Of a stretch of 64,000 nt of DNA, positions 9,189 through 39,300 are shown one piece after another. Each line of letters opens with the position of its first letter. The stretch's first letter is position 1. This DNA is from Streptomyces sp. Je 1-332 (GTDB lineage Bacteria; Actinomycetota; Actinomycetes; Streptomycetales; Streptomycetaceae). The DNA lies in contig NZ_CP160402.1 in NCBI RefSeq assembly GCF_040730185.1, positions 3,968,001-4,032,000 of the forward strand, written 5' to 3'. The position numbers and the translations under genes were made by a program. Below the pieces are notes generated by a model. It saw only the letters and a program-made list of their open reading frames with translations. It was not told the origin of the DNA and did no database searches.

Positions 9189-9232
9189 TGTGCACTCGGC
9201 AGGATTCGAACCTGCAACCTTCTGATCCGTAG
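9189..9232. other. Left attachment site (tRNA-Arg 3' fragment)
   Basis: The 44 bases are identical to 21121-21164. Bases 9191-9232 are the 3' end of tRNA-Arg from the anticodon loop to the discriminator base. On the left they continue into chromosome (and the original terminator), on the right into the element. Confidence 0.92.
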
Positions 9233-9314
9233 CTCTAAGTAGAACGGTCAGTGACGGCTATACAGGCCGCACTTCGGGTCTACGAGTGCGCTACGGGACG
9301 GGTCCGGTTGCTGT

Positions 9315-9340
9315 GGTTGCTGTACTTCGCTGCTGTACGG
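9315..9340. repeat. 26-bp direct repeat near the left att site (possible arm site)
   Basis: Exact copy of 21050-21075, in the same orientation, 83 bp inside the left att core. It contains two GCTGTAC motifs. A further partial copy precedes it (9305-9314). It is a candidate arm-type site for integrase or Xis. Confidence 0.75.
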
Positions 9341-9343
9341 CTC

Positions 9344-9916
9344 CTAGCGCAGAGGCGAATCGAGCTTGACCTTCGGCATCACCGCGTCGGGGAGCATCCG
9401 GTCGAGCTTCACCTTCGGCATCACCATGTCGGCGAGCATCCGGTCGAGCTTCACCTTCGGCATCACCATGTCGGCGAGCATCCGGTCGAGCTTCACCTTC
9501 GGCATCACCATGTCGGCGAGCATCCGGTCGAGCTTCACCTTCGGCATCACCATGTCGGCGAGCATCCGGTCGAGCTTCACCTTCGGCATCACCATGTCGG
9601 CGAGCATCCGGTCGAGCTTCACCTTCGGCATCACCGCGTCGGCGAGCATCCGGTCGAGCTTCACCTTCGGCATCACCGCGTCGGCGAGCATCCGGTCGAG
9701 CTTCACCTTCGGCATCACCATGTCGGCGAGCATCCGGTCGAGCTTGACCCTGGACATCGCCACATTGGCCACGAGCTGGTTGTGGCTGGTTGGGGCGCAA
9801 TCCGAGTCATAGGCCGGCGTCGTCAAACGCGCCAACGCTTCGCTGTACGGGATGCACTCGCAGCGGGCTAGCCGACGGGCCTTCTGCTTCAGGGAGTTGT
9901 TGCCCTGCTTGGGCAT
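9344..9916 (-). CDS. Repeat protein of nine or more 14-residue units, function unknown
   Basis: This 190-residue protein starts at MPKQGNNSLK with a good RBS (GGAAG, 6 bases before ATG). A basic N-terminal region (residues 8-31, ARRLARCECIPYSEALARL) resembles a short Tyr/Ala-Leu motif seen at the start of other actinobacterial mobile-element proteins. A linker follows, then about ten copies of the unit MPKVKLDRMLADMV. Only Met/Ala alternation (DMV or DAV) and one Ala to Pro change vary. The 14-residue period is two heptads, with hydrophobic positions suited to helical packing and one Pro per repeat. The opposite-strand frames through the repeats lack a plausible N-terminus. The function is unknown. 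Confidence 0.65.
   Translation of the reverse strand: MPKQGNNSLKQKARRLARCECIPYSEALARLTTPAYDSDCAPTSHNQLVANVAMSRVKLDRMLADMVMPKVKLDRMLADAVMPKVKLDRMLADAVMPKVKLDRMLADMVMPKVKLDRMLADMVMPKVKLDRMLADMVMPKVKLDRMLADMVMPKVKLDRMLADMVMPKVKLDRMLPDAVMPKVKLDSPLR
9361..9780. repeat. 42-bp tandem repeat (9 near-perfect copies plus 1 degenerate)
   Basis: Units begin at 9361, 9403, 9445, 9487, 9529, 9571, 9613, 9655 and 9697. A tenth, diverged unit is 9739-9780. Differences fall almost entirely at one two-base position (ATG/GCG) and at the outermost units. The unit keeps reading frame (14 codons). The copies are contiguous, with no spacers. Near-identity points to recent expansion or homogenisation. Confidence 0.95.
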
Positions 9917-10105
9917 AGCTCTTCCAAACCTCAGCAAGCCCCACGTACTCGCCGGATCGAGGCTGATGCCTGGGGCGAGAAGTTGAGCGTGGGCCCCGAG
10001 GGCCTTGACCGTCAGTGCTGCTTGCGACGTGGGCGCATGCTGCTGCGGATCGGCGTACACGACTTGCCGTGACATTTACGGTACAGGATTGAGCTTTGTG
10101 GGAGT

Positions 10106-10212
10106 AGTGGGTCCCGAGAGGTCTAAAAGTCCTGTCGGTCAATCCACACCATGCTCGATCTTGAAAACCATCCTGGCGAGAGTCACCGTGGGTTCAAGTC
10201 CCACACCCACCG
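10106..10212 (+). pseudogene. tRNA-Ser(UGA) remnant: 3' half plus a degenerate 5' segment
   Basis: Bases 10159-10212 align without gaps to the 54-base 3' part of the intact tRNA-Ser at 39216-39300, with 46 identities. They run from the anticodon loop (TCTTGAAAACC) to the discriminator. The variable arm has changed but can still pair (TGGC/GTCA), and the T-arm and acceptor strand are perfect, so it derives from another real tRNA-Ser. A segment resembling the acceptor and D-arm lies at 10106-10129, but the anticodon stem is broken and the distance is wrong. The span equals a typical integrase attachment core, so it may be an att relic. Confidence 0.75.
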
Positions 10213-10650
10213 CACAGCTTTAAGACCCCTGACCAGGAACATCGGTCGGGGGCCCTTCATCATGCTCGCTCGGGACCCAACTTCCGCAGGCGCTACCGCG
10301 TGGTGGACAACGTCGTCGTGCTGACGGGGCACACCGAGTACTACGCGGAGATGCGATACGGCGCGCGCGGTGAGATCGATGCCTTCATGTCTGTCCACTA
10401 CTTGCTCGTTGCCTACGCCCATGTAGTGGTCGCTGCTCTGCAAGGACTGCATCCCGCTTCGAGGCGAGACGCTGGCGACAGCGCCCTAAGTCGCCTTCGC
10501 GGAGGTCGCCTTGACCCTGACAGGCACGTGTTGTCAGCGCCTACCTATATGCTTTTGCCGTCGACTTCCGGTCCACCACGAACTTCGGCCCTCGGCGCCG
10601 AAGACCCCACGCACGCCAGGGGTTTAGCACTACCGGACTGGAAGTGTGAC

Positions 10651-10791
10651 ATGGCAGATCTGCGAAAGCCGGACGATCCAGAAGAGTCGGAGCGCGACCC
10701 GAAACGCGGCCCCACGAAGGCCGAGATTCTAGTCGTAGTGCTCTCCGCGATCACGGCACTCGCAGGCTGTGTGGAGCAGCTGGCGCGATAG
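10651..10791 (+). CDS. Possible small membrane protein
   Basis: This is a 46-residue frame beginning MADLRKPDDPEESERDPKRG, with a charged N-terminal half and then a hydrophobic segment (about 25-41, ILVVVLSAITALAGC). GGAAG lies 6 bases before the ATG. The same frame is open upstream to 10300, where RRRYRVVDNVVVLTG and EMRYGARGEIDAFMS look protein-like. The feature may therefore be the tail of a longer or decayed gene. I do not recognise it. Confidence 0.35.
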   Translation: MADLRKPDDPEESERDPKRGPTKAEILVVVLSAITALAGCVEQLAR

Positions 10792-10839
10792 TGCGCCAAA
10801 CGTAGATCGGTACGCCGGACGATGTGGCAGGGCCAAGCA

Positions 10840-10878
10840 GAGCGGGCCCGGCCGTTAGGTAGTCGGCCGGACCCGCTC
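10840..10878. other. Hairpin with 15-bp arms, one mismatch
   Basis: Arms 10840-10854 and 10864-10878 have a 9-base loop. It is followed within 20 bp by a second hairpin. A terminator pair for the leftward genes or part of an origin are both possible. Confidence 0.7.
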
Positions 10879-10894
10879 AACGACTCCACGCTTC

Positions 10895-10930
10895 GGCCCG
10901 GTTCTGGTGGTCAGAGACCAGAGCCGGGCC
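10895..10930. other. Hairpin with 14-bp arms, one mismatch
   Basis: Arms are 10895-10908 and 10917-10930. No T-run follows on either strand, which is common in Streptomyces terminators but equally fits an origin structure. Confidence 0.65.
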
Positions 10931-11033
10931 ACTCTGCTTGGAGCCCGCTTGTGATCAGTGCTATGCCACGTTTCTACTGTGGAAGTAGCAGCGGAGGATT
11001 TACCTCGCTGTACTAATACCCAGACTATAGCCG

Positions 11034-11083
11034 CTGGCCCCCACTGGTCCTAGCTGGTCCTCACTGGTCTTCACTGGTATCGA
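11034..11083. repeat. Five CTGG-centred repeats at exact 10-bp spacing
   Basis: CTGG occurs at 11034, 11044, 11054, 11064 and 11074, mostly as (C)ACTGGTC. One helical turn between units puts them on one face of the DNA. A further CTGGTC lies at about 11097. Clustered short direct repeats are the known form of TraB-recognition sites in Streptomyces conjugative plasmids, though those use a different 8-mer. Confidence 0.75.
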
Positions 11084-11140
11084 AGCGACGGGGAGACCTG
11101 GTCAGACGCTACGCACGGCGAGAGAGAAACTAAATAAAGC

Positions 11141-11153
11141 GACCAGGTCGCTA
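11141..11153. promoter_or_regulatory. Perfect 13-bp palindrome GCGACCAGGTCGC
   Basis: Six-bp arms surround a central A. The ACC/GGT half-sites echo the GGTC of the neighbouring phased repeats. It could be an operator or part of the same nucleoprotein site. Confidence 0.55.
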
Positions 11154-11298
11154 GTCGGAACGAAACGTACATTTCCCCCTCGTTGGGTCATGAGCCGTGT
11201 TGACACAGTTTGGGATCAAGGGCTCTCCCTCCACTCCTTGGCTGGCCATGGTTCGCAGAGATGAACGCGGTCGGTGGAGCGGCTTTGGGCGGGAGCTG

Positions 11299-11409
11299 CT
11301 TTGGGGCGAGTGATCATGGCCCCTTAAGCTTCCGGCGAGTCGGGCAGTCTGTGGACCTGCCCGTTAAAGCACGACGTTGGGGCCATGATCTTCGAGGCTC
11401 GCCCCAAAG
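11299..11409. repeat. Large nested inverted repeat in non-coding DNA
   Basis: The left outer arm 11299-11323 pairs with 11379-11409: 12 bp, then a 6-base bulge in the right arm, then 12-13 bp. The loop holds a second perfect hairpin (11341-11347 with 11357-11363). It could form a long cruciform or a structured RNA. It is a candidate single-strand or double-strand origin for the RepSA-type initiator, or a regulatory RNA. Confidence 0.75.
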
Positions 11410-12040
11410 TGGCTGCGTAAAGCCGTGGAGCCGACCGCCCCAGCCACGGGGCAACGGCCCAGGTAGTGGGTTTGCCCGCCGGGTACCGCCGCCGCGATCC
11501 GGCCTTATCGGTAACACAAAGCTCTCTGTGGCCTGCTGTGCGGCAATCCCCTGTGCCCCTGTGGCTCCGTGCTTGGTTTTGGCCGCTGCCGGGGCGACGG
11601 ACGGACGGCGCGCGCAGCTGGTGGCGTAGACATGGAAGCGGCGGGCGGCGGCCGGCCGGCGCCCCCGCGCTGTGCGCGGCCCCTCGGTCCTTGGATCGAT
11701 CCCGACTTCGGTGGGTGGCGCGTGCCTGGTGGTCTTAATGGGGGTGTTCTTCGGCGTGCGCTTCTCGGGCCTACGGATGCTGCTGGTTCTTCTTCCCTCC
11801 CTAGGTCGGATCGCGGCGGCGGTACCCGGCGGGCTTCTCCCGCGTCACCAGGGACGGAAGATCCAGGCCAGGGGTGGTTGAAGCTCGCGGCTGACTCTGG
11901 CGGCCGCGAGCGCAGCGAGCCTTGATGAAGTAGGGAAACTCTGTCCGCGTGCTCCTCATCGGCCCTGTCCGAATGTCAACCCAGACGGCTACGCTGGTGC
12001 GGTCCAGTCATCCAGAGGGGTCTGAGGAGTTGCTGCCTGA

Positions 12041-12832
12041 ATGGGGCCGAAGTCGGCGCGGGCGTACCGCACGATTCGCGAGTGGGTTGCGTCGGGGAAG
12101 TACCCGCCCGGTGCGAAGTTGCCCTCTGAGCGCACTCTTGAGAAGGAACTGGAGATCGGGCGGACACAGCTCCGCGTCGTGCTGGCGAAGCTCGTAGCTG
12201 AGGGCGTGCTGGAGTCACACGTTCGTAGCTCGTACCGCGTTCCTGTTCGTGCCGTGAGTGTCGAACGCCCTGAGGGCCTCGAATCCTGGCAGATCCACGG
12301 TGAGCGCACGGTCTACGACAACCGATGGGTGAAGCTGGACCTCGTGGACGTCGAGCCACCTGGCGTTGAGCGCTTCGAGCATCACGTAGTGCGACTGCAC
12401 CATGTAGCGATCTCTGCCGTGATCGATGACCAGGACCGCGTCCTCATGCTCTGGCGCTATCGCTTCGTGCCGGACAAGTGGGGTTGGGAGTTGCCTGGCG
12501 GCATCGTGGACGATGGCGAGGAACCGCACGCGACCGCACTTCGCGAGTTCGAGGAAGAGACGGGCTGGCGTCCGAAGTCCCTGGACCACGTGGTCACCTA
12601 TCAGCCCATGGTGGGCATGGTCGACTCACCGCATGAGATCTACGTCGGCCGGGGAGCCACACACGTCGGTGATCCCACGGATATCGAGGAAGCGGGACAC
12701 GTCGCCTGGGTGCCGCTCTCGGACGTTCCAGGCCTGATGGCTCGGGACGAGCTGATGGGCTCGGGCACGCTGGTGGCTCTGCTCCACGTCCTGGCCTCAC
12801 GTGCTGGTGGACCGTCTACAGCCTCTGTGTAA
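12041..12832 (+). CDS. GntR helix-turn-helix fused to a Nudix hydrolase
   Basis: This is a 263-residue protein. Residues 1-70 are a GntR winged helix (SGKYPPGAKLPSERTLEKEL) and residues 110-245 a Nudix domain. The Nudix box is complete: Gly-x5-Glu-x7-Arg-Glu-x2-Glu-Glu-x-Gly (GEEPHATALREFEEETGW). In pSAM2, transfer immunity depends on Pif, a Nudix-motif protein, and KorSA is a separate GntR repressor. This protein joins both features. It may therefore be a regulator, an immunity factor, or a Nudix-sensing repressor. The gene converges on and overlaps the XRE gene by 17 bp. The RBS is weak. Confidence 0.88.
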   Translation: MGPKSARAYRTIREWVASGKYPPGAKLPSERTLEKELEIGRTQLRVVLAKLVAEGVLESHVRSSYRVPVRAVSVERPEGLESWQIHGERTVYDNRWVKLDLVDVEPPGVERFEHHVVRLHHVAISAVIDDQDRVLMLWRYRFVPDKWGWELPGGIVDDGEEPHATALREFEEETGWRPKSLDHVVTYQPMVGMVDSPHEIYVGRGATHVGDPTDIEEAGHVAWVPLSDVPGLMARDELMGSGTLVALLHVLASRAGGPSTASV

Positions 12833-13949
12833 GTTGCTCGATTCGTCGGCGGTGTCGAACCGACCCCGTGCGGTTCGCCAGCAATCGAGCTTGCTGTAGA
12901 TGCTCCCGAGCCTGACTGAACTCCCCGCGGGCAAGGTGCGCCTGCGCAAGATCGCACCGCATTCCGGATGTCGCGCGGACGAACGTCGGATCGGTCGTCC
13001 GGAGCCCGGTGTAGAGACTGTCGAGAGCGTCACCGTCACCGATCATGGCAAGCGCGTTACCTCGCCAGCGGGCAAGGTGACTGCTGTTCAGGAAGATGCT
13101 GAGCATGTCCGGATCGCGGTCTTCCTCTCCCGGCGGAAGGCAGGCGATGGCCCTGTCCAAAGCTCGTTTGCAGTCATCCGGCATGTTGGCCTTGGCGCAG
13201 AGTTCAGCTTCGGCAGCGAACAGCCAAGCTCGGAGGCGTGGTGAGGTTCGCTCCCTGCCTAGGCGCTGAGCTTCCCGAACCAGTTGGACCGCCATCTCAG
13301 GACGGCCGCCATCGTTCAGCACATACGCTTGCTCAGCAGTGGCGTGAGCCAGATACATCGGTTCTTCGGCTTCCTGCGCTGCGCGCTTTCCTAACTCGTA
13401 GTTTCGCCAGGCCCGTTCGACTGACCCGGCACTGAGGGCCTGCCAGGCTGCCAAAGTTGCGGCGCCGGCGAGTGCTCGCGCTACAGGACGGCGGGCATCA
13501 GGCAACACGGCGAAGGTCAGGGCATCTTCAAGCGCCGTTAGATGACCGGTCATTTGGTCAACGAGCTTCGCCGCGCCCATCTGACGATCGAGGGTGCGCA
13601 GAACCTCAGTTTGATCCATGAACGTCGTCACCATGGAGGTACTGACGCTCCGAGCGGAGTCGATCCGACTCATCAGCTCGGCGTATCCGCCGGCCTCGGC
13701 AACGGGAGCAATCCCGTCGTTGGTGGCGAACAGCTCCGCATCGGTGACTCCGAAGAGTGGGCGCAGGATGTGGGCGTATCGCTCGCTGATCTGGCGCTTT
13801 CCGTTCTCCCACTCGGAGACGTAGACGCGCAGGCTCGCCGTTGACGCCACATCGAGCACGTGCTGATGCGCGAATAACTCGACCTCACGGATCAGTCGAT
13901 CTTGTGACCAGCCTCGTGCTTTTCGGATCTCGCGTAGCCGGTTGGACAC
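12816..13949 (-). CDS. XRE-family regulator with TPR-like C-terminal domain
   Basis: This is a 377-residue protein. The GTG at 13949 (RBS GAGGGCGG) begins VSNRLREIRKARGWSQDRL, a Cro/CI-type helix-turn-helix (to about residue 75). The rest is alpha-helical with tetratricopeptide-like periodicity (about 120-370). Such XRE-TPR proteins are common regulators in Streptomyces elements. It is divergent from the pra-tra operon, and the 335-bp gap holds several palindromes, so it probably controls that operon and itself. A longer upstream start is possible but would read through the operators. Confidence 0.85.
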   Translation of the reverse strand: MSNRLREIRKARGWSQDRLIREVELFAHQHVLDVASTASLRVYVSEWENGKRQISERYAHILRPLFGVTDAELFATNDGIAPVAEAGGYAELMSRIDSARSVSTSMVTTFMDQTEVLRTLDRQMGAAKLVDQMTGHLTALEDALTFAVLPDARRPVARALAGAATLAAWQALSAGSVERAWRNYELGKRAAQEAEEPMYLAHATAEQAYVLNDGGRPEMAVQLVREAQRLGRERTSPRLRAWLFAAEAELCAKANMPDDCKRALDRAIACLPPGEEDRDPDMLSIFLNSSHLARWRGNALAMIGDGDALDSLYTGLRTTDPTFVRATSGMRCDLAQAHLARGEFSQAREHLQQARLLANRTGSVRHRRRIEQLTQRL

Positions 13950-13978
13950 CTGTACCGCCCTCGACTTGGCGCCGCCAC

Positions 13979-14045
13979 CTGTTAACAGAAGCATGCCGCA
14001 CATCAGTGCAGGTCGGCAGCGGGTTAACAGCATCCGCGTTAACCC
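13979..14045. promoter_or_regulatory. GTTAAC palindromes in the divergent promoter region
   Basis: CTGTTAACAG at 13979-13988 is a perfect palindrome. GGGTTAAC (14021-14028) and GTTAACCC (14038-14045) form an inverted pair 9 bp apart. They lie next to the XRE start (13949) and are likely operator sites for an element regulator, probably autoregulation. Confidence 0.55.
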
Positions 14046-14128
14046 CTGTTGGCTACCGGCAAGTTGAGGATCGCGGTTCTCTTGAGGTGTCGCTAGAAGA
14101 CGAGTTGGAAGTCGGACAGTGGCAAGCG

Positions 14129-14172
14129 TTGACATCTGGTGCGCACCAGATGCAATCTGTTGGTGCGCACCA
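14129..14172 (+). promoter_or_regulatory. Promoter of the transfer operon overlapped by two palindromic operators
   Basis: TTGACA (14129-14134) lies 18 bp before CAATCT (14153-14158). A perfect 20-bp palindrome (14133-14152) fills the spacer. A second TGGTGCGCACCA palindrome (14161-14172) begins 2 bp after the -10, with centres 24 bp apart. A repressor bound here would block polymerase. The repressor could be the XRE-TPR or the GntR-Nudix protein. Confidence 0.7.
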
Positions 14173-14287
14173 GTTTGGAACGCAAGAGCCCTGTGGAGCT
14201 GTCTCAAGCTTCGCGACACACCGCAGGAGCGGCGCCCTACCGCCAAGCAGCCCGCCGCTCCCGCCCCTCAATCAAGGGAGTTCCATG

Positions 14288-14647
14288 ATGCAGCAGATCC
14301 CCGTAGACACCGTCGGCGCGACCCTGATGGTCGCTCAGCCTCCCCAGCCGAAGTACGCGAACCAGAAGACGCAGGAGCGTGCGGCCGACCGGCAGACCGG
14401 CGAGTTCCTGATGACCCTGGACGTGCTGTTCGTGATGAACGGCAATGCGGAGGTCGTCAAGGTCACCGTCGGTGAGTCCGCCATCTCTGGTGAGCTGACG
14501 ATGGGTACGCCGGTCGCCCTCACCGGGCTGATCGCTCGGCCGTGGGAGAACGAGTTCAACGGCCAGAAGCGGCACGGCATCAGCTTCCGTGCGGTCGCGG
14601 TCACGGCACAGACCGTCGGGGCGCCCAAGAGCGTGAAGGCGGCCTGA
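14288..14647 (+). CDS. Pra-like small protein, first gene of the replication-transfer operon
   Basis: This is a 119-residue protein, predicted beta-rich, with no membrane segment (ERAADRQTGEFLMTLDV, later PWENEFNG and GISFRAVAV). In position and pattern it resembles the small activator (Pra-type) proteins that precede tra genes in pSAM2-like elements. That assignment is tentative. Two adjacent ATGs exist (14285, 14288); GGGAG at 14276-14280 gives better spacing to the second. It is followed after 2 bp by the FtsK-like gene and lies under the operator-controlled promoter. Confidence 0.7.
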   Translation: MQQIPVDTVGATLMVAQPPQPKYANQKTQERAADRQTGEFLMTLDVLFVMNGNAEVVKVTVGESAISGELTMGTPVALTGLIARPWENEFNGQKRHGISFRAVAVTAQTVGAPKSVKAA

Positions 14648-14649
14648 TC

Positions 14650-16005
14650 ATGACGTGGTTAACGATCGCGCTCGTGGTCGTTGCCGGGCTGGCGCTGCTG
14701 CTTCGGTGGCGCCGCCCCGCCTGGTACTGGATGACCTTCGGCATCCTCTTCGCCACGATCAAGATCCGCATCCGGTACGCGTCCGTGATGGACGCCTGTG
14801 ACCTGACCGAGCCGGCCTCACGGTGGCGGCTGGCGATGGCCCGCATGTTCAACTGGCAGACGCCTCGCCAACGCGTTCCGCGCCTGCTGTGGATCAAGCC
14901 GACACGGACCGGTCTGCGGTTGCGGATTCGGATGCTGCCGGGCCAGGACGCCTTCGACTACTCGGCCGCGGTCGACCGGCTGCGGCACGCCTTCGGCGTC
15001 CACCAGGTCACCTCACGCGAGATCAAACCCGGCGTCATGGAGATCGCCACGACCGGCTATGACGTGCTGCGGCTGGTGCAGATGCCGGCCAAGACCGACC
15101 GCCGTGAACTGCGGGTGCCGGTGGCGCTGTGTGAGGACGGCTCGGTCCACTACCGCGACTACAAACAGGTGCCGCACTCAGTCACCCTCGGGGCGGTCGG
15201 CTCGGGCAAGTCCGTCACCCAACGCAAGGTCATCAAGGAACTCGCCCCGCAGCACGTCGCGTTGGTCGGCATCGACTGCAAGCAAGGCGTCGAGATCGCC
15301 CCGCTCGCCCGCCGGTTCACCGCACTGGCCGACAACCCGGACGATGCGGCCGATCTCCTGGAAGCCCTCGTCTCCCGCATGGATGCGATCTACCAGGTCA
15401 TCCGCCGCGAGCAACGGATCAGTGCGGACACCCCGGACGGTGAGATCACCGCGAACATCTGGGGCCTCCCCGAGAAGCTGCGGCCGGTACCGGTGGTGGT
15501 CACGATTGACGAGATCGCCGAACTCGCGCTGTTCACCACGACCGCGGAGAAGAAGCGTCGTGAGCGCATCATCGTCGCCCTGGTACGCCTGGCCCAGCTC
15601 GGCCGCGCAGCCGGCATCTTCCTCGACATCTACGGACAGCGCTTTGGCTCCGAACTCGGCGACGGCATCACCATGCTCCGCGCCCAGCTCACCGGCCGGA
15701 TGGCACACCGCGTCAACGACGAATCTTCGGCCAAGATGGCCTTCGGGGACGTCTCCCCGCACGCGGTGTTCGCCGCCACACAGATCTCCAACGATCGCCC
15801 CGGCATGGCCGTGATCGGCCACTCCAACGGCGAGTGGACACGCATCCGCACCCCGCACACCTCGATGCGCGAAGCCGTGAGCGCCTGCAACAAGCACGCC
15901 GCTCTCACGCCAGAGATCCCGGAACTGGCCCGCTTCAAGCCGGTCATGGATCTCGACTCTCTCAAGGCGCCCGCGACCCTCGAACCTGTCGCCGAAGCCG
16001 CCTGA
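14650..16005 (+). CDS. FtsK/SpoIIIE-family DNA translocase, TraB/TraSA-like conjugal transfer protein
   Basis: This is a 451-residue protein. One or two N-terminal membrane helices (residues 3-20 and about 26-40) precede a motor domain with Walker A GAVGSGKS (about 185) and Walker B VVVTIDEIAEL (about 290). Streptomyces conjugation needs a single protein of this type, a hexameric pump that moves double-stranded DNA between hyphae after binding short clt repeats. It is much smaller than chromosomal FtsK, as expected for AICE versions. The start follows the previous stop by 2 bp. The clt partner may be the phased repeats at 11034-11083. Confidence 0.92.
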   Translation: MTWLTIALVVVAGLALLLRWRRPAWYWMTFGILFATIKIRIRYASVMDACDLTEPASRWRLAMARMFNWQTPRQRVPRLLWIKPTRTGLRLRIRMLPGQDAFDYSAAVDRLRHAFGVHQVTSREIKPGVMEIATTGYDVLRLVQMPAKTDRRELRVPVALCEDGSVHYRDYKQVPHSVTLGAVGSGKSVTQRKVIKELAPQHVALVGIDCKQGVEIAPLARRFTALADNPDDAADLLEALVSRMDAIYQVIRREQRISADTPDGEITANIWGLPEKLRPVPVVVTIDEIAELALFTTTAEKKRRERIIVALVRLAQLGRAAGIFLDIYGQRFGSELGDGITMLRAQLTGRMAHRVNDESSAKMAFGDVSPHAVFAATQISNDRPGMAVIGHSNGEWTRIRTPHTSMREAVSACNKHAALTPEIPELARFKPVMDLDSLKAPATLEPVAEAA

Positions 16006-16091
16006 TCCTCCCCCTCGCTCCACCGGTCGGCACGACCGTCTCGCGCCAAGCCCCTACCCCCTCCATGCCTGATCACAGAGAGGAAACCGTC

Positions 16092-16259
16092 ATGAGGTTG
16101 CCGCGCAGGAAGCACAAGACCGAGGTCTACGACGCCGGCTTCGGCTACTACAACTTCCAGTGCTCGTGCGGTGTCACCGGCCGCGCGATCACGCACCGGG
16201 AAGAGATCGTCACCAAGGCCCGCCTGCACGTCGAAGGCGCCGCACGCCAGAAGCGGTGA
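16092..16259 (+). CDS. Small Cys-containing mobile-element protein
   Basis: This is a 55-residue basic protein with a CSC motif and aromatic residues (GFGYYNFQCSCGVTGR). RBS AGAGAGGAAA precedes the ATG. Similar short proteins sit between tra and spd genes of AICEs and are often annotated as mobile-element transfer proteins; their role is unknown. The next gene starts 5 bp later. Confidence 0.65.
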   Translation: MRLPRRKHKTEVYDAGFGYYNFQCSCGVTGRAITHREEIVTKARLHVEGAARQKR

Positions 16260-16264
16260 CGGCG

Positions 16265-16438
16265 ATGGCCCGCAAGAAACCCCCGGCTCGCCCGCCTGCC
16301 TCCCAGCCGTGCAAGCCGTGCGAGGGCACCGGCGAAGTCCCCGTCAAGGTTCGGGTCGGCCGCCAGCAACGTGTCGTCGGCCAACAGACCGGCATCTGCC
16401 TCGGCTGCTTCGGCACCGGCCAAGCCCTCACCGACTGA
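16265..16438 (+). CDS. Small protein with two CxxCxGxG zinc-ribbon motifs
   Basis: This is a 57-residue protein with CKPCEGTG and CLGCFGTG, the paired knuckles of a DnaJ-type zinc ribbon, separated by about 22 residues. The N-terminus is basic and Pro-rich. It is encoded 5 bp after the previous small gene. A paralogue with the same layout is at 18029-18223 in this operon. Zinc binding is a confident inference; the partner is unknown. Confidence 0.7.
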   Translation: MARKKPPARPPASQPCKPCEGTGEVPVKVRVGRQQRVVGQQTGICLGCFGTGQALTD

Positions 16439-16510
16439 AAACGCCGGGGCTGGGCGGCCGGACTCGATCCCCGCCCCGCCCCGGCCCAACCCTGAAGGAG
16501 GTGAAGCGAC

Positions 16511-17170
16511 ATGAACACTCCGATCCGCCCGGACGCTGTGCTCGTACAGGCCGTGATCGCCGGAGCACTGTCCTTCGCCCACCTGCACGACCTCGCCGCT
16601 GCTGCCGGTCAGACCGGCTGGAAAGCCTGGGCCTACCCCGTCTCCGTCGACCTGCTGCTCGTCGCCGCCTGGCGCCGGCTGCGCAGTGACGGACCCTCGC
16701 GGCTGGCCTGGTGCTGGTTCCTGGTCGCCTTGGTCGCCTCGCTCGGCGCCAACGTCGCCACCGCCGGCTTCCTGGACCTGGCCCACCCTCCGGGCTGGCT
16801 TCGCTTCGGCGTGGCCGGATGGCCCGCGCTGGCATTCCTGGGCGGCACCCTCCTCGCCCACAGCCCCGCACCGCCCCCGGCGGCTGTCGACCGCACTCCG
16901 GACCCGGAGCCCGAGCCGATCGCCGTGACCCGTGAGCGCGAACCGGCCCCGGAGCCCGAAGTACTCCCGGCTGCGGAACCTGCCGCAGCTCTGCCGGAAG
17001 CAGCTCCCGCGCCCGCCGTGGAAGCCCCGCCCGCACTGGTAGCGCATGCCCGCCGGCTTGCCGACGACCACCAGGCCCGCACCGGCAGCCCGATCGACCT
17101 CGACACCCTGCGCGCCCGCCTCGGCGTCCCCGCCCCGATGGCCGACGCGATCGCAGCCCAACTCACCTGA
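16511..17170 (+). CDS. DUF2637 membrane protein (spread-type)
   Basis: This is a 219-residue protein. Four hydrophobic helices lie in residues 10-118, followed by a Pro/Glu-rich linker (about 120-175) and a short C-terminal helical domain. The strong RBS GGAGGTG is 7 bases before the ATG. The family is regular in AICEs and is linked to intramycelial plasmid spread (Spd proteins). It probably sits in the hyphal membrane and helps move the element through septa. Confidence 0.8.
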   Translation: MNTPIRPDAVLVQAVIAGALSFAHLHDLAAAAGQTGWKAWAYPVSVDLLLVAAWRRLRSDGPSRLAWCWFLVALVASLGANVATAGFLDLAHPPGWLRFGVAGWPALAFLGGTLLAHSPAPPPAAVDRTPDPEPEPIAVTREREPAPEPEVLPAAEPAAALPEAAPAPAVEAPPALVAHARRLADDHQARTGSPIDLDTLRARLGVPAPMADAIAAQLT

Positions 17171-17191
17171 TCCAGAAGGGAAGACCACGTC

Positions 17192-17386
17192 ATGCCGCAC
17201 GGATTCCTGTTCCAGCGCCTCATGGCCTACGGCCCCGTAGAGATCGGACGCGGCCTTGGCCGGGACGGCGACAAGGCGTACATCGCCTCCTGCACCTCTG
17301 ATCGGTGCGGCTGGTCGGCGGACTTCGTCACCTACTCCGCCGTGTGCATGGCCGCCAAGGGCCACCGCTGCCGCATCAAGAACTGA
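17192..17386 (+). CDS. Mobile-element transfer-type small Cys protein
   Basis: This is a 64-residue protein with four Cys (SCTSDRCGW, then two near the C-terminus), which may bind zinc. It begins MPHGFLFQRLM. Proteins of this size and pattern are regular in AICE spread operons and are of unknown biochemical role. The gene lies 21 bp after the DUF2637 stop. Confidence 0.65.
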   Translation: MPHGFLFQRLMAYGPVEIGRGLGRDGDKAYIASCTSDRCGWSADFVTYSAVCMAAKGHRCRIKN

Positions 17387-17415
17387 CCCGCCGCACAGAC
17401 AAGGGAGACCCGGTC

Positions 17416-17571
17416 ATGTCCGTCCCGCTCTGGTTCGCTCTCGCGATCATCGGCTACCTCGGCATCAAGCTCGCCCGCCCGCCGCTCTGGCTCGTCATGG
17501 TCCTGCTCCTCGGCGGCTACCTCCTCGCCGACAGCCTGCTCGCCCCCGCCATCGATCCCACCATCAAGTAA
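17416..17571 (+). CDS. Small membrane protein of the spread operon
   Basis: This is a 51-residue, almost entirely hydrophobic protein with two predicted helices (about 3-20 and 24-42) and a short polar tail. RBS AAGGGAG precedes the ATG. Position and size match the small Spd-type membrane proteins of Streptomyces plasmids. Confidence 0.65.
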   Translation: MSVPLWFALAIIGYLGIKLARPPLWLVMVLLLGGYLLADSLLAPAIDPTIK

Positions 17572-17597
17572 CCCGCCCCGGAAGGGAGATCCACCTC

Positions 17598-17936
17598 ATG
17601 TTCCAGCCCCGCGTACCGGTCAACGAGACCCCCACCGGAGAGATCATCCCGGTCATCACCACCCTCGGCGCCACCTTCCCGCAGCACCACATCAGTGCCC
17701 CGTGCGCCTGCGCCCAACACACTCCCGCCCCGCAGACGACCGCCGCCCGGCCGGCCGTACAGCTCACCCCCGGCGCCCTGGCGACCGTGGTCGTCGGCGG
17801 CACCGTGGCCGTTCTCGTGGTCGGCGCAGTGCTGGTCTCCATGCTCCTGGCGGTCGCCATCACCGCCGGTGCGCTCGCCATCGTCGCGCTCGTCATCCGC
17901 TCGCTCGTAAACAGCGAGCCCAAGCGCACCCGTTGA
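17598..17936 (+). CDS. SpdB-like membrane protein
   Basis: This is a 112-residue protein. The N-terminal 55 residues are polar with a CAC motif, then there are two closely packed hydrophobic helices (about 58-102) and a basic tail. RBS GAAGGGAG precedes the ATG. By position it is a spread protein. Helix content supports membrane location; the specific role is inferred from context. Confidence 0.65.
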   Translation: MFQPRVPVNETPTGEIIPVITTLGATFPQHHISAPCACAQHTPAPQTTAARPAVQLTPGALATVVVGGTVAVLVVGAVLVSMLLAVAITAGALAIVALVIRSLVNSEPKRTR

Positions 17937-18028
17937 CCGGCCCCGGAGCGGCCTCAACCACCAAGTCCAGTCCGCTCCGGTGCCGCGCCTCCCGCCCGAA
18001 CCAAGCGATCCGGAAGGAAGACAGCATC

Positions 18029-18223
18029 ATGACCCAGCCCACCCCTGCCCTGGCCCGCGTCTGCAGGCACTGCGACGGCTTCGGCTCCGTCAAGGTCACC
18101 CTGGGTGGCCGTGACCGGCACGGCCACCTGCGCACCATCACCGCCCACTGCAAGGCGTGCCACGGCACCGGCACCACCCGTGGCCGCCGCTTCGACTCGG
18201 CGACGTGGGAGGTGGCCGCGTGA
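18029..18223 (+). CDS. Second small CxxCxGxG zinc-ribbon protein
   Basis: This is a 64-residue protein with CRHCDGFG and CKACHGTG spaced like the motifs in the 57-residue protein at 16265. RBS CGGAAGGAAG precedes the ATG. Its stop overlaps the GTG start of the replication initiator, so the two are coupled and may act together. Confidence 0.7.
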   Translation: MTQPTPALARVCRHCDGFGSVKVTLGGRDRHGHLRTITAHCKACHGTGTTRGRRFDSATWEVAA

Positions 18224-19620
18224 GCGACACCGCCACCTTGGCGGGCCTGGATAGGGCCACCCTCGGCGACATGCTGAAGGTGGCCGGCTCCGACCGCTTC
18301 GATCGCTGGCAGGACCAGATCAAACGAACTGGCGGCTGCGCCGATCCGATCCACCTCACCGGCTGGTCCATCACCAAAGACCGCACCACCGGCGAAACTC
18401 TGCGCCACTACTCGACCGACACCGAACCCGGCGGCCGACTGCGCATCGCGTGCGGCAACCGCCGTGCTTCCCGCTGCCCGGCCTGCGCCTGGACCTACGC
18501 CGGCGACACCTACCACCTCATCCGTGCCGGACTCGTCGGCGATACCCGGCACGAGATCCCCGCCACCATCCGTCACCGCCCCCGCGTCTTTGCCACCCTC
18601 ACCGCACCCTCGTTCGGAGCCGTCCACAACCAGCCGACTCACGGAGCCTGCCGCTGCGGCACCGCCCACCGCGACGACGACCCGAAGCTCGGCACACCGC
18701 TCGACCCCTGCGCGTACGACTACGCCGGCGCTGTGCTCTTCAACAACCACGCCGGAGACCTGTGGCACCGTTTCGTCAACCGGCTGCGCCGCGAGATCGC
18801 CGCCCAAGTCGGCATCAAACAGAAAACGTTCAAGGAGACTGCCCGCCTCTCCTACGGCAAGGTCGCCGAATTCCAGAAGCGCGGAGCCGTCCACTTCCAC
18901 GCCGTGATCCGCATCGACGGAGCGGACGGGCCCGACACCCCACCCCCGGCCTGGGCGACCACTGAACTCCTCACACAAGCCATCCACACCGCCGCGACGC
19001 ACCCCTACGTCACCGTGTCCGTCCCGCCCTCCCCGGACGCCGGATATCTGTACGGCTGGCAACTGCGCTGGGGTCGACAACTGGATGTGCGGCCGATCAA
19101 GGCGTTCGGAGACGGCTCTGAGATCACCGAACAGGCCGTGGCCTCCTACGTCGCCAAGTACGCCACCAAAGCAGCCGAGAACACCGGCACCGTGGACCGG
19201 CGCATCGGCAACCGCGAAGCCGCAAACCTCCTCGGCCTGCCCGAGCATCCCCGTCGGCTCATCGAAGCCTGCTTCGACCTCGCCCCCCTCTATCCCGAAC
19301 GGCGCCTGATCGCCTGGGCCCACATGCTCGGCTTCCGCGGCCACTTCAGCTCCAAGTCCCGCCGCTACTCCACCACCCTCGGCACCCTGCGACAGATCAG
19401 GGCCGATTACCGAGCCGCCCAAGAACGCGAAGCTCTCGGCCTCGACGGCCACGAACCCGACACCGTGCTCGTCCTCGCCTCCTGGCAGTACGCCGGCCAC
19501 GGCCACACCCCCGGCGAATCCGCCCTCGCCGCCTCCATCGCCCGAGATCTCCAGCTCAACCGCGAAACCGCACGCGAAGCCCTACAAGACCAACCCGTCC
19601 CGGAAGGAGCCGCAGCATGA
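18220..19620 (+). CDS. repSA: Rolling-circle replication initiator, RepSA-like HUH endonuclease
   Basis: This is a 466-residue protein. The GTG at 18220 overlaps the previous stop (GTGA). A Cys-rich region (about residues 85-175) resembles zinc knuckles. The metal-binding HUH motif is GAVHFHAV (about 225) and the catalytic Tyr region is ASYVAKYATK (about 310), the expected spacing for a Rep nuclease. Its length is close to the pSAM2 RepSA size. It should nick a double-strand origin on the excised circle. Overlap with xis downstream is 4 bp. Confidence 0.9.
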   Translation: MSDTATLAGLDRATLGDMLKVAGSDRFDRWQDQIKRTGGCADPIHLTGWSITKDRTTGETLRHYSTDTEPGGRLRIACGNRRASRCPACAWTYAGDTYHLIRAGLVGDTRHEIPATIRHRPRVFATLTAPSFGAVHNQPTHGACRCGTAHRDDDPKLGTPLDPCAYDYAGAVLFNNHAGDLWHRFVNRLRREIAAQVGIKQKTFKETARLSYGKVAEFQKRGAVHFHAVIRIDGADGPDTPPPAWATTELLTQAIHTAATHPYVTVSVPPSPDAGYLYGWQLRWGRQLDVRPIKAFGDGSEITEQAVASYVAKYATKAAENTGTVDRRIGNREAANLLGLPEHPRRLIEACFDLAPLYPERRLIAWAHMLGFRGHFSSKSRRYSTTLGTLRQIRADYRAAQEREALGLDGHEPDTVLVLASWQYAGHGHTPGESALAASIARDLQLNRETAREALQDQPVPEGAAA

Positions 19621-19823
19621 CGACGACAGTGATCCAACCGAAGTGGCACACGACCAGGGAGGTCGCCGCGATGCTCGGCTACGGCCTCTCCAAGACCAAG
19701 ATGCTGGTACTCACCGGCGAGATCCGTTCCATCAAGGATGGGGGGAGCCGTCGCATCCTTCCCCGCTACGTGGACGAGTACGTCGAGCGTCGCGCCCGCC
19801 TGGCTGAGGAGGAAGCAGCGTGA
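19617..19823 (+). CDS. xis: Excisionase (Xis), MerR-like winged helix
   Basis: This is a 68-residue protein with a single helix-turn-helix of the excisionase type (TTREVAAMLGYGLSKTKMLV) and a basic wing (GGSRRILPRYVDEYV). It is coupled to rep upstream (ATGA) and to int downstream (GTGA), the usual repSA-xis-int order. It directs integrase toward excision. Confidence 0.9.
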   Translation: MTTTVIQPKWHTTREVAAMLGYGLSKTKMLVLTGEIRSIKDGGSRRILPRYVDEYVERRARLAEEEAA

Positions 19824-21046
19824 GCGGCAAGCGAGGCAACGGCGAAGGCTCCATCTACCCGTACAAGAACGGCTACGCGGCCTACGTCTGGGTGACCAAG
19901 CCGGACGGCACACGCGCCCGGAAGTACGTCTACGGCAAGACTCGCGAGGAGACGCACGAGAAGTGGCTCAACCTCCACGCAGAAGCGAAGAAGGGACCCG
20001 TCGCCACTCGGCATCGCACAGTGTCCGTCTTCCTCACGTACTGGCTCGACTCGATCGTTAAGCCGAACCTCGCCCCGTTGTCGTACGTGTCGTACGAGGG
20101 CTGCGTGCGCCTCTACATCGCTCCCTACCTCGGGGCGAAGCGGCTGGATCGGCTGTCCGTCCGGGACGTACGTGAGTGGCTGACCAAGCTGGCGACGGTC
20201 TGCCAGTGCTGTGCTCAGGGCAAGGATGCGAAGCGCGCACCGGCACGCCGGAAGTGTTGCGCGGTCGGGGACTGCTGCGAGGCGTACCCGTCCCGCCGGG
20301 TCATCCAGGCGTCCCGCGATGCCCTGCGGGCTGCCCTGACGCATGCCGTCTCCGAAGAGGAGATCAGTAGGAACGTCGCTTCCCTGGTGAGGGTGCCCAA
20401 GCCGCGGCGCCGCCGGATCAAGCCGTGGTCGGTCGCCGAAGCCGGCCAGTTCCTCACCGACGCTGCCGCTCGGGATGATCACCTGTTCGCCGCGTGGATG
20501 CTGGTTCTCTGCCTTGGTCTGCGCCGCGGTGAGGTCCTGGGCCTGACGTGGAAGTCCGTCGATTTCGATGCTGGCGAGTTGTACGTGGATCACCAGATCC
20601 AGCGCGCCGGCCGCCAGATCCTGCACCGGGAGACCAAGACCGAGGACTCGGACGACTTCTTGCCCCTGCCCGCGCTCTGCCTCAAGGCTCTGCGGATGCG
20701 TGGGGGCCAGCAAGCCGGGGACCGTAGCGCTGCCGGTGACGCCTGGCAGGACAAGCACGGTCTGATCTTCACCACGAAGTACGGGACCCCGATCGAGCCG
20801 GGCAACATGACCCGGATGTTCGCTCTGCGGGCTCGGCGCGCCGGTCTCCGTGTGATCCCGCTGCGGAACACTCGGCACACGTGCAGCTCGCTCCTGGTGG
20901 CCCTGAAGGTGCATCCGAAAGTGGCGCAGCGCATCCTTCGGCACTCGCAGATCGCCATGACGATGGAGGTCTACGCGGAAGCGAGCGAGGAAGAAGTGCG
21001 CTCGGCACTCGACCAGCTGTCCGGCGCGATGGACGCCACCGGCTGA
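19820..21046 (+). CDS. int: Tyrosine site-specific integrase
   Basis: This is a 408-residue protein. An N-terminal arm-binding domain (about 1-60) and a SAM-like core-binding domain (about 65-190) precede the catalytic domain. The core-binding region carries a Cys-rich insert (CQCCAQGKD, then CCAVGDCC) typical of this Streptomyces family. Catalytic residues are Arg in LGLRRGEVLGL, Arg in NTRHTC, His in LRHSQI, and the nucleophilic Tyr in MEVYAEA. The first His of the usual HxxR box is replaced, as in related AICE integrases. The GTG start is coupled to xis. It ends 75 bp from the att site it uses. Confidence 0.95.
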   Translation: MSGKRGNGEGSIYPYKNGYAAYVWVTKPDGTRARKYVYGKTREETHEKWLNLHAEAKKGPVATRHRTVSVFLTYWLDSIVKPNLAPLSYVSYEGCVRLYIAPYLGAKRLDRLSVRDVREWLTKLATVCQCCAQGKDAKRAPARRKCCAVGDCCEAYPSRRVIQASRDALRAALTHAVSEEEISRNVASLVRVPKPRRRRIKPWSVAEAGQFLTDAAARDDHLFAAWMLVLCLGLRRGEVLGLTWKSVDFDAGELYVDHQIQRAGRQILHRETKTEDSDDFLPLPALCLKALRMRGGQQAGDRSAAGDAWQDKHGLIFTTKYGTPIEPGNMTRMFALRARRAGLRVIPLRNTRHTCSSLLVALKVHPKVAQRILRHSQIAMTMEVYAEASEEEVRSALDQLSGAMDATG

Positions 21047-21049
21047 GGC

Positions 21050-21075
21050 GGTTGCTGTACTTCGCTGCTGTACGG
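21050..21075. repeat. 26-bp direct repeat near the right att site (possible arm site)
   Basis: Exact copy of 9315-9340, in the same orientation, starting 4 bp after the int stop and ending 45 bp before the att core. Two GCTGTAC motifs lie 15 bp apart. Confidence 0.75.
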
Positions 21076-21083
21076 GCAACGCA

Positions 21084-21114
21084 AGAGGCCCCCGGATGAT
21101 CTCCGGGGGCCTCT
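21084..21114 (-). terminator. Element-borne terminator for the reconstituted tRNA-Arg
   Basis: Perfect 13-bp arms (21084-21096, 21102-21114) around a 5-base loop, directly downstream of tRNA-Arg on its strand. It has the same GAGGCCCC upper stem as the displaced chromosomal terminator at 9148-9183 but a different lower stem and loop. Confidence 0.8.
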
Positions 21115-21120
21115 CACCTG

Positions 21121-21164
21121 TGTGCACTCGGCAGGATTCGAACCTGCAACCTTCTGATCCGTAG
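21121..21164. other. Right attachment site (within intact tRNA-Arg)
   Basis: The 44 bases are identical to 9189-9232. Divergence begins at base 21165, inside the anticodon stem. The right side supplies the tRNA 5' half from the chromosome, and the element supplies the 3' half. Confidence 0.92.
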
Positions 21165-21195
21165 TCAGATGCTCTATCCGTTAAGCTACGAGTGC
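21123..21195 (-). tRNA. tRNA-Arg (anticodon ACG)
   Basis: Seventy-three bases fold as a cloverleaf. The acceptor strands GCACTCG/CGAGTGC pair, the anticodon loop is CTACGGA with ACG, and the T-loop is GGTTCGAATCC. CCA is not encoded. The gene is intact because the element restores its 3' end. Confidence 0.95.
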
Positions 21196-39215: not shown

Positions 39216-39300
39216 CGGTGGGTGTGGGATTTGAACCCACGGAGGCTTGCGCCTCGACGGTTTTCAAGACCGTTCCCTTAGGCCGCTCGGGCAACCCACC
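39216..39300 (-). tRNA. tRNA-Ser (anticodon UGA)
   Basis: Eighty-five bases. The acceptor GGTGGGT pairs with ACCCACC, the anticodon loop is CTTGAAA, and the variable arm is GAGGC-GCAA-GCCTC. It is the intact counterpart of the tRNA-Ser fragment inside the AICE (10159-10212). Confidence 0.95.

Follow-up and report, generated by a model that had tools for sequence, protein, structure and literature searches.

A probable relic tRNA-Ser(UGA) attachment site inside the left end of a tRNA-Arg(ACG)-integrated AICE, and its probable origin in a change of integration target

The 3' half of a tRNA-Ser(UGA) gene is located 0.93 kb inside the left end of an AICE that is integrated in a tRNA-Arg(ACG) gene of Streptomyces sp. 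Je 1-332. It was examined within a 64,000-nucleotide stretch of DNA, hereafter called the window. This fragment is probably the relic attachment (att) site of a tRNA-Ser(UGA)-specific AICE, left behind when the xis-int-att module of that element was replaced by a tRNA-Arg(ACG)-specific one. Four observations form the basis of this reading, namely the likeness of the fragment to mobile att sites, its position, the presence of the same layout in other elements, and a before-and-after pair of elements from genomes G149 and G052. The pair documents such a switch, and the window element would have had the same history. The original prediction, a fossil tRNA-Ser attachment site in a tRNA-Arg AICE reflecting either a composite origin of the element or an earlier change of its insertion site, is thus supported by the relatives of the element.

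The genome that carries the window is 8.27 Mb long and forms a single contig. An exact 44-bp direct repeat of the 3' part of tRNA-Arg(ACG), at 9189-9232 and 21121-21164, bounds an element of about 12 kb. With a tyrosine integrase, a RepSA-type initiator and an FtsK-like transfer protein between tRNA-derived direct repeats, the element 9189-21164 is a pSAM2-like AICE that would be self-transmissible, as predicted from its gene content. A GntR-NUDIX protein is also encoded between the two Arg repeats. The features of this host element are as follows.

9189-9232, minus strand: left att core of the AICE, 44-bp 3' part of tRNA-Arg(ACG), exact direct repeat of 21121-21164
9317-9338, plus strand: TTG repeat of the left end, presumed integrase arm site, exact copy at 21052-21073
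9344-10075, minus strand: open frame of 243 aa containing tandem repeats of 42 bp, cargo located between Arg core and Ser fragment
14542-16005, plus strand: FtsK/SpoIIIE-type transfer protein, TraB-like (PF01580, 122.7 bits)
18157-19620, plus strand: RepSA replication initiator (PF20199, 493.8 bits)
19617-19823, plus strand: small frame at the xis position, assigned by eye, putative in function; a similar frame precedes int in G052
19820-21046, plus strand: tyrosine integrase of the tRNA-Arg(ACG) type (PF00589 and PF14659 above cut-off)
21052-21073, plus strand: TTG repeat adjoining int, found beside int in 22 of 22 elements compared
21121-21195, minus strand: right att core (21121-21164) within the intact tRNA-Arg(ACG) gene (21122-21195)

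The TTG repeat (TTGCTGTACTTCGCTGCTGTAC) is presumably the arm site of the integrase. Its left copy lies 85 bp inside the left core, and no third copy at up to three mismatches was found in the whole genome beyond those at the left end and beside int. Of 17 current Arg(ACG) left ends, only 2 (window, G196) carry the repeat. The 243-aa frame (9344-10075, minus strand) has no Pfam family above cut-off; over 9276-9863 its 42-bp tandem repeats gave ten in-register copies of a 210-bp reference. Relatives of the window integrase occur in 43 other genomes, and the backbones of relatives with different integrases diverge near the end of RepSA. A stretch of about 180 bp at 11269-11447 recurs across the genus in very many further genomes, with identities as high as 99% and often twice per genome, and makes up most of the matches listed in the search. 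As a universal marker for the start of the backbone it failed, being absent from most of the AICEs compared. Another shared block, seen among the compared elements, is absent from the window.

The fragment itself is best described by reference to the Ser sites of mobile elements. Those of class 1 consist of an att core, a terminator, and GTTCCCC and GGGCACG arm repeats located 150-163 bp from the crossover. The relevant features of the window are the following.

10107-10126, plus strand: possible remnant of a tRNA-Ser 5' half (18/20 aligned bases identical, with a gap of 2 bases)
10159-10212, plus strand: probable relic att core, 3' half of tRNA-Ser(UGA) starting at the anticodon loop (46/54 against the native gene)
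10213-10270, plus strand: terminator and start of the flank as in class-1 Ser sites, the profile match stopping at 10270
39216-39300, minus strand: native intact tRNA-Ser(UGA), the comparison gene

Alignment of 10159-10212 (plus strand) with 39269-39216 (minus strand) confirmed the 46 identities in 54 gapless positions, with 8 changes, that had been reported for the local tRNA-Ser(UGA); the printed alignment covers 52 columns, the first two of the 54 positions having been supplied by eye. At the crossover both copies have the same 11 bases, TCTTGAAAACC. The 3' half reached a local score of 64 against a maximum of 27 among 2000 dinucleotide shuffles, which rules out a chance match, and among overlapping 90-bp tiles of the window the native tRNA-Ser alone outscored it. 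When the genome was searched with 10060-10270, the next best place was again the native tRNA-Ser (78% over 101 bp, E 7.9e-17), and the length of this match means that the similarity extends beyond the tRNA into the terminator. A profile built from 17 mobile relatives matched 10159-10270 with 82.9 bits (E 9.9e-25); the native tRNA-Ser with its downstream DNA scored slightly higher on the same profile (88.3 bits). Phage origin was rejected, no match being present in the phage collection at E 1e-5.

Like the class-1 cores, 10159-10212 starts at the anticodon loop and lacks the native D-stem, and a terminator and flank of the mobile type follow through 10270. The extent first given, from the anticodon loop to the discriminator, applies to the core, and the likeness actually continues past the tRNA and through the terminator to 10270. 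The adjoining DNA, which was to be compared with the ends of Ser-type elements, resembles them up to 10270, where the class-1 profile match ends, and the arm repeats are missing beyond: GTTCCCC and GGGCACG had no match in this region of the window. Since these repeats are missing, the fragment is a relic and no complete att site. Of the two possibilities first offered, a fossil or a second attachment site, the fossil is thus the better supported, since the fragment is no complete second attP.

The proposed search for tRNA-Ser-type elements matching the core was productive. Its best match is the junction site of a 13.5-kb circular AICE record (L009, NZ_CP108827), with 50/53 identities, about 150 bp from an annotated integrase. 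At the junction of this record the Ser att core occurs twice in tandem, which is either real or an effect of assembly. A crude integrase motif pattern was dropped because it missed the integrase of L009. Native tRNA-Ser genes of other species reach 49/53 over the core (5 of 14 compared) against 50/53 for the mobile copy, so the core alone decides little. The foreign origin that had been read from the variable arm is qualified by the same native genes: variable arms of this type are widespread in the genus, and the source organism therefore need not be distant. The flank 10213-10270 is closest to the class-1 site of G161 (49/58). Other mobile sites reach up to 76%, and the best of the 14 native genes 46/62 (74%), a comparison in which some native flanks may themselves be element DNA, because elements occupy those genes.

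To place the fragment in the genus, a pattern for Ser halves lacking the native D-stem was run on 295 genomes and on a reversed control. It found at least 39 places in 34 genomes and none in the control, the 39 being a lower bound because the pattern misses both the window copy (by one base of the flank rule) and the G052 copy. Wide regions were taken for 34 of the 39 places (G002, G024, G030, G137 and G152 were left out) and assigned to classes by eye. A class-1 arm is present to the right of the core in 18 regions and lacking in the other 16. Two of the 18 follow a whole tRNA-Ser of their own contig (G240, G132). Seven lie inside an element or array at another tRNA (G273, G080, G087, G196, G293, G004, G104), one lies just outside a neighbouring element (G065), and for eight, some of them on short contigs, no partner was found (G285, G166, G151, G208, G237, G161, G117, G033). 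Among the 16 class-1 left ends away from tRNA-Ser, then, no host tRNA was found for 8, and 1 (G065) is outside an element. The halves without a class-1 arm are mostly ordinary attR ends: a whole tRNA-Ser lies upstream on the same contig, at 1 to 41 kb, in 14 of 16, and on another contig in the remaining two.

The layout of a class-1 element is given by G149 and G196, both of which carry one in tRNA-Ser(UGA) itself, with the class-1 arm following the whole tRNA gene. Their Ser-type integrases are 85% identical and are encoded close to the attR half, which GGGCACG repeats precede by about 100 bp. Core, terminator and arm together therefore mark the left end of the element, and int stands at the right end, pointing away. 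The left flanks of Ser sites vary between elements. A GTCTCAATGG-like stretch is found 30-31 bp to the left of the Ser crossover in eight dissimilar flanks, mostly of class 1 (G004, G065, G080, G196, G273, G285, L061 and L065); the window lacks it.

The position of the fragment is a recurrent one. Eleven class-1 left ends, two of them represented by arms only, lie inside elements integrated at other tRNAs, and in all 11 (the window and 10 others) the buried end is inside the left end of its host and has the polarity of that host.

Thr hosts: G273 (class-1 left end 0.6 kb inside) and G080 (3.2 kb)
Arg(CCT) hosts: G087 (2.5 kb inside) and G104 (in an array)
Gly host: G293 (2.8 kb inside)
Arg(CCG) host: G004 (3.5 kb inside; no integrase detected in the element)
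Arg(ACG) hosts: the window (0.9 kb inside), G196 (11.6 kb) and G052 (4.3 kb)
Arms only: G115 and G212

In G087 the Arg(CCT) core, a TTG repeat and the Ser site follow one another in series. G104 is a large accretion array: eight partial tRNA-Arg(CCT) 3' ends (L087, L088, L122, L123) are spread in one orientation over about 41 kb, with several integrase frames between the copies and the whole tRNA-Arg(CCT) about 12 kb past the last partial one.

The frequency of the class-1 site was also assessed among elements with an integrase of the window type. This sample comprised 22 elements, 20 picked from the 43 genomes with a match for high identity, mostly on large contigs, together with those of the window and G196. 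A left end is visible in 18 of them, one of which (G138) is at another tRNA. Three of the 18 carry a Ser core, two have arms only, and 13 have no class-1 site. Among these 13, part of the profile is weakly matched in G047 (E 8.7e-5), at a different tRNA-like T arm, and G057 has an arm-like motif with three mismatches and no profile match. Being present in a minority of these AICEs, the class-1 site is sporadic baggage and no working part. The element of G138 (L176) is a target change within one integrase family, its integrase being 75% identical to that of the window, with the same TTG repeat and a different tRNA, by eye probably Thr(TGT).

The clearest view of how such a site becomes buried is provided by the pair G149/G052. 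The G149 element is located at tRNA-Ser(UGA), and that of G052, whose integrase has 88% identity to the one in the window, at tRNA-Arg(ACG). Their first common block (3271 bp, 92.5% identity) starts 4 bp before the Ser crossover and includes the att flank. An unlike middle of 2.4 kb and 6.0 kb, respectively, is followed by a second common block (6873 bp, 95.6%) that ends near the end of the RepSA-like frame (rep), and the small frame before int (xis) and int itself differ. The Ser site persists inside the G052 element. Relative to a G149-like ancestor, xis-int-att was replaced in G052 by another xis-int, an Arg core and 4.3 kb of left-end DNA, and this new left-end DNA was joined to the old Ser crossover. 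The two elements thus combine the same backbone at a former site, different xis-int-att modules, and a joint at the old crossover. The order of parts in the window is that of G052, namely Arg core, cargo, Ser core and backbone. Identity between the window backbone and G149 is 73-85% in blocks up to the end of rep, and that between the window and G052 is 80% from rep through int. No tRNA-Ser element with the window's own backbone at high identity was found, and G149/G052 represents a different lineage.

How the exchange took place can be outlined from the two joints. A new Arg(ACG) xis-int-att module would bring with it a new left end and cargo, and if this left end were joined at the old crossover, the Ser site would stay just inside and the polarity of the element would be kept. 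The likely route would begin with a Ser-type circle whose own integrase inserts it at a non-tRNA site within the cargo zone of an Arg-type AICE. Recombination between the like-oriented backbones would then delete one of the two xis-int ends. Of the two joints, the one at the old crossover suggests that this end arose by site-specific recombination, and the one near the end of rep suggests recombination in the common backbone. Having lost its arm repeats, the copy in the window probably no longer functions as an attP. Several observations weigh against this history: the lack of a tRNA-Ser counterpart with the window's own backbone at high identity, the missing arm repeats, the slightly better profile score of the native gene, the poor separation of mobile and native copies by the core, the class-1 left ends with no host tRNA found or outside an element, the 13 AICEs of the same integrase type with no class-1 site, the presence of the TTG repeat at only 2 of 17 current left ends, and the 5'-half-like stretch at 10107-10126, which a switch scar leaves unaccounted for. 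The likeness of that stretch is marginally significant (0.1% of 2000 shuffles, 0/500 in a second test) and is separated from the 3' half by about 32 unrelated bases. Among the 36 Ser sites tested it is prominent only in the window, and weak in L012.

The main rival for the window itself, which we consider unlikely, is that no switch occurred: a Ser-type element would have entered the cargo zone of an Arg AICE whose backbone was always of the Arg type, and would then have been deleted except for its left tip. The window retains only about 112 bp of a Ser-type left end, its backbone resembles that of G149 only to 73-85% and in blocks, and the left flanks of Ser sites are unlike between elements, all of which would suit such a nested remnant. 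G052, however, kept far more than a tip, its Ser site, 3.3 kb and a 6.9-kb backbone being common with a tRNA-Ser element.

A relic left by a switch is also preferred over a site that still works, either as a second attB-like landing site or as a weak attP kept for joining elements. This alternative is improbable: the 11 bases TCTTGAAAACC at the crossover are indeed unaltered, and class-1 sites recur in AICEs and linear plasmids, yet the site is absent from 13 of 18 AICEs of the same integrase type, and the window copy has 8 changes and no arm repeats. Still less credible is that the cargo includes a degenerate or atypical tRNA-Ser gene or a transcribed tRNA-like RNA. The 5'-half-like stretch upstream and the terminator downstream would fit it, but neither ARAGORN nor Rfam calls a tRNA at the fragment, which thus does not qualify as a functional tRNA-Ser gene, and 5'-half likeness is confined to the window and, weakly, L012 among the 36 Ser sites. 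Finally, an ordinary attR of an element in the local tRNA-Ser(UGA), the usual situation of halves without class-1 arms (14 of 16 with a whole tRNA-Ser upstream on the same contig), can be dismissed, because the native gene lies 29 kb away in the opposite orientation, so that the two form no attL/attR pair, and tRNA-Arg repeats bound the element in which the fragment lies.

Similar halves are found on linear plasmids. Thirteen plasmid records, all from Streptomyces, match the fragment region, 12 in addition to the circular AICE. Eight of the 12 plasmids were examined, and no Pfam-detectable tyrosine integrase was present within 13 kb of a Ser half; in five of these eight, same-strand TTG repeats (up to five mismatches) lie no more than 10 kb from a half. 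The plasmid halves look like stacked left ends of lost elements. A general reading of such halves as gene cassette arrays was set aside in favor of this one, although it may still apply to the plasmids. In L047 (NZ_CP109481, 11707-12005) a short open frame behind a TTG repeat has its TGA stop within the anticodon of a Ser half, as seen by eye, and similar left flanks occur in L066 and L057.

Burial appears to have worked in the other direction too. At 6.6 kb inside the G149 element, a GGGCACG repeat is directly followed by an Arg(ACG) crossover and a TTG repeat. This element, now at tRNA-Ser, may thus have passed through an Arg phase before. With a class-1 arm, an Arg crossover and a TTG repeat buried together in a Ser-type element, a wider proposal can be stated tentatively. 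The left ends of AICEs might be layered records, in which each change of module is joined at the former crossover and old cores and arms are ordered by age. Elements would shuttle between tRNA targets, the former integrase would make one of the two joints, and non-tRNA integration followed by backbone recombination could be a general way of changing target. Changes of chromosomal target by integrative elements are usually inferred from integrase comparisons; a scar at a regular place and with a regular polarity would reveal their direction and order from single sequences. The pair G149/G052 offers two defined and testable joints, at the end of rep and at the old crossover. Annotators should bear in mind that isolated 3' halves of tRNAs on plasmids and islands of actinomycetes may be relics of att sites and no tRNA genes.

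The literature search, which left subscription journals largely outside its scope, found no AICE described as retaining a former att site in its interior. As far as the available parts of the published articles go, integrase switching of AICEs is known, and the scar and the before-and-after pair are apparently undescribed. Elements of one family, AICE03, carry different xis/int at different sites (tRNA-Val or rlmN), and an integrase/excisionase switch has been proposed to change the AICE integration site (PMC9513070). The available text of that article describes no former att site inside AICE03, whereas the window has a relic core inside its left end, and in G149/G052 the joints themselves are located, at the old crossover and the end of rep. 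The composite Frankia AICE Fcci3390, for which the accessible text names two integrases and attL2/attR2 (PMC3218068), resembles the window in having att sites of two specificities in one element. It differs in that two integrases and both second att sites are named, whereas the window has one integrase and a single worn site. AICEs and defective AICEs are also described, in the consulted parts of both sources, as accreting at one tRNA (PMC9513070; PMC3218068), which leaves a series of tRNA 3' halves like that of G104 at tRNA-Arg(CCT). Accretion in this sense involves one specificity, whereas the relic in the window derives from a tRNA other than that of its host element. The closest counterparts are the tRNA-Ser(UGA)-type AICEs, of class 1 (G149, G196) and class 2 (L009, G247, G267). 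The window has the core in common with both classes, and with class 1 also the terminator and the start of the flank; in contrast to these elements, its copy is without arm repeats and without an integrase of its own, and lies inside a tRNA-Arg element.
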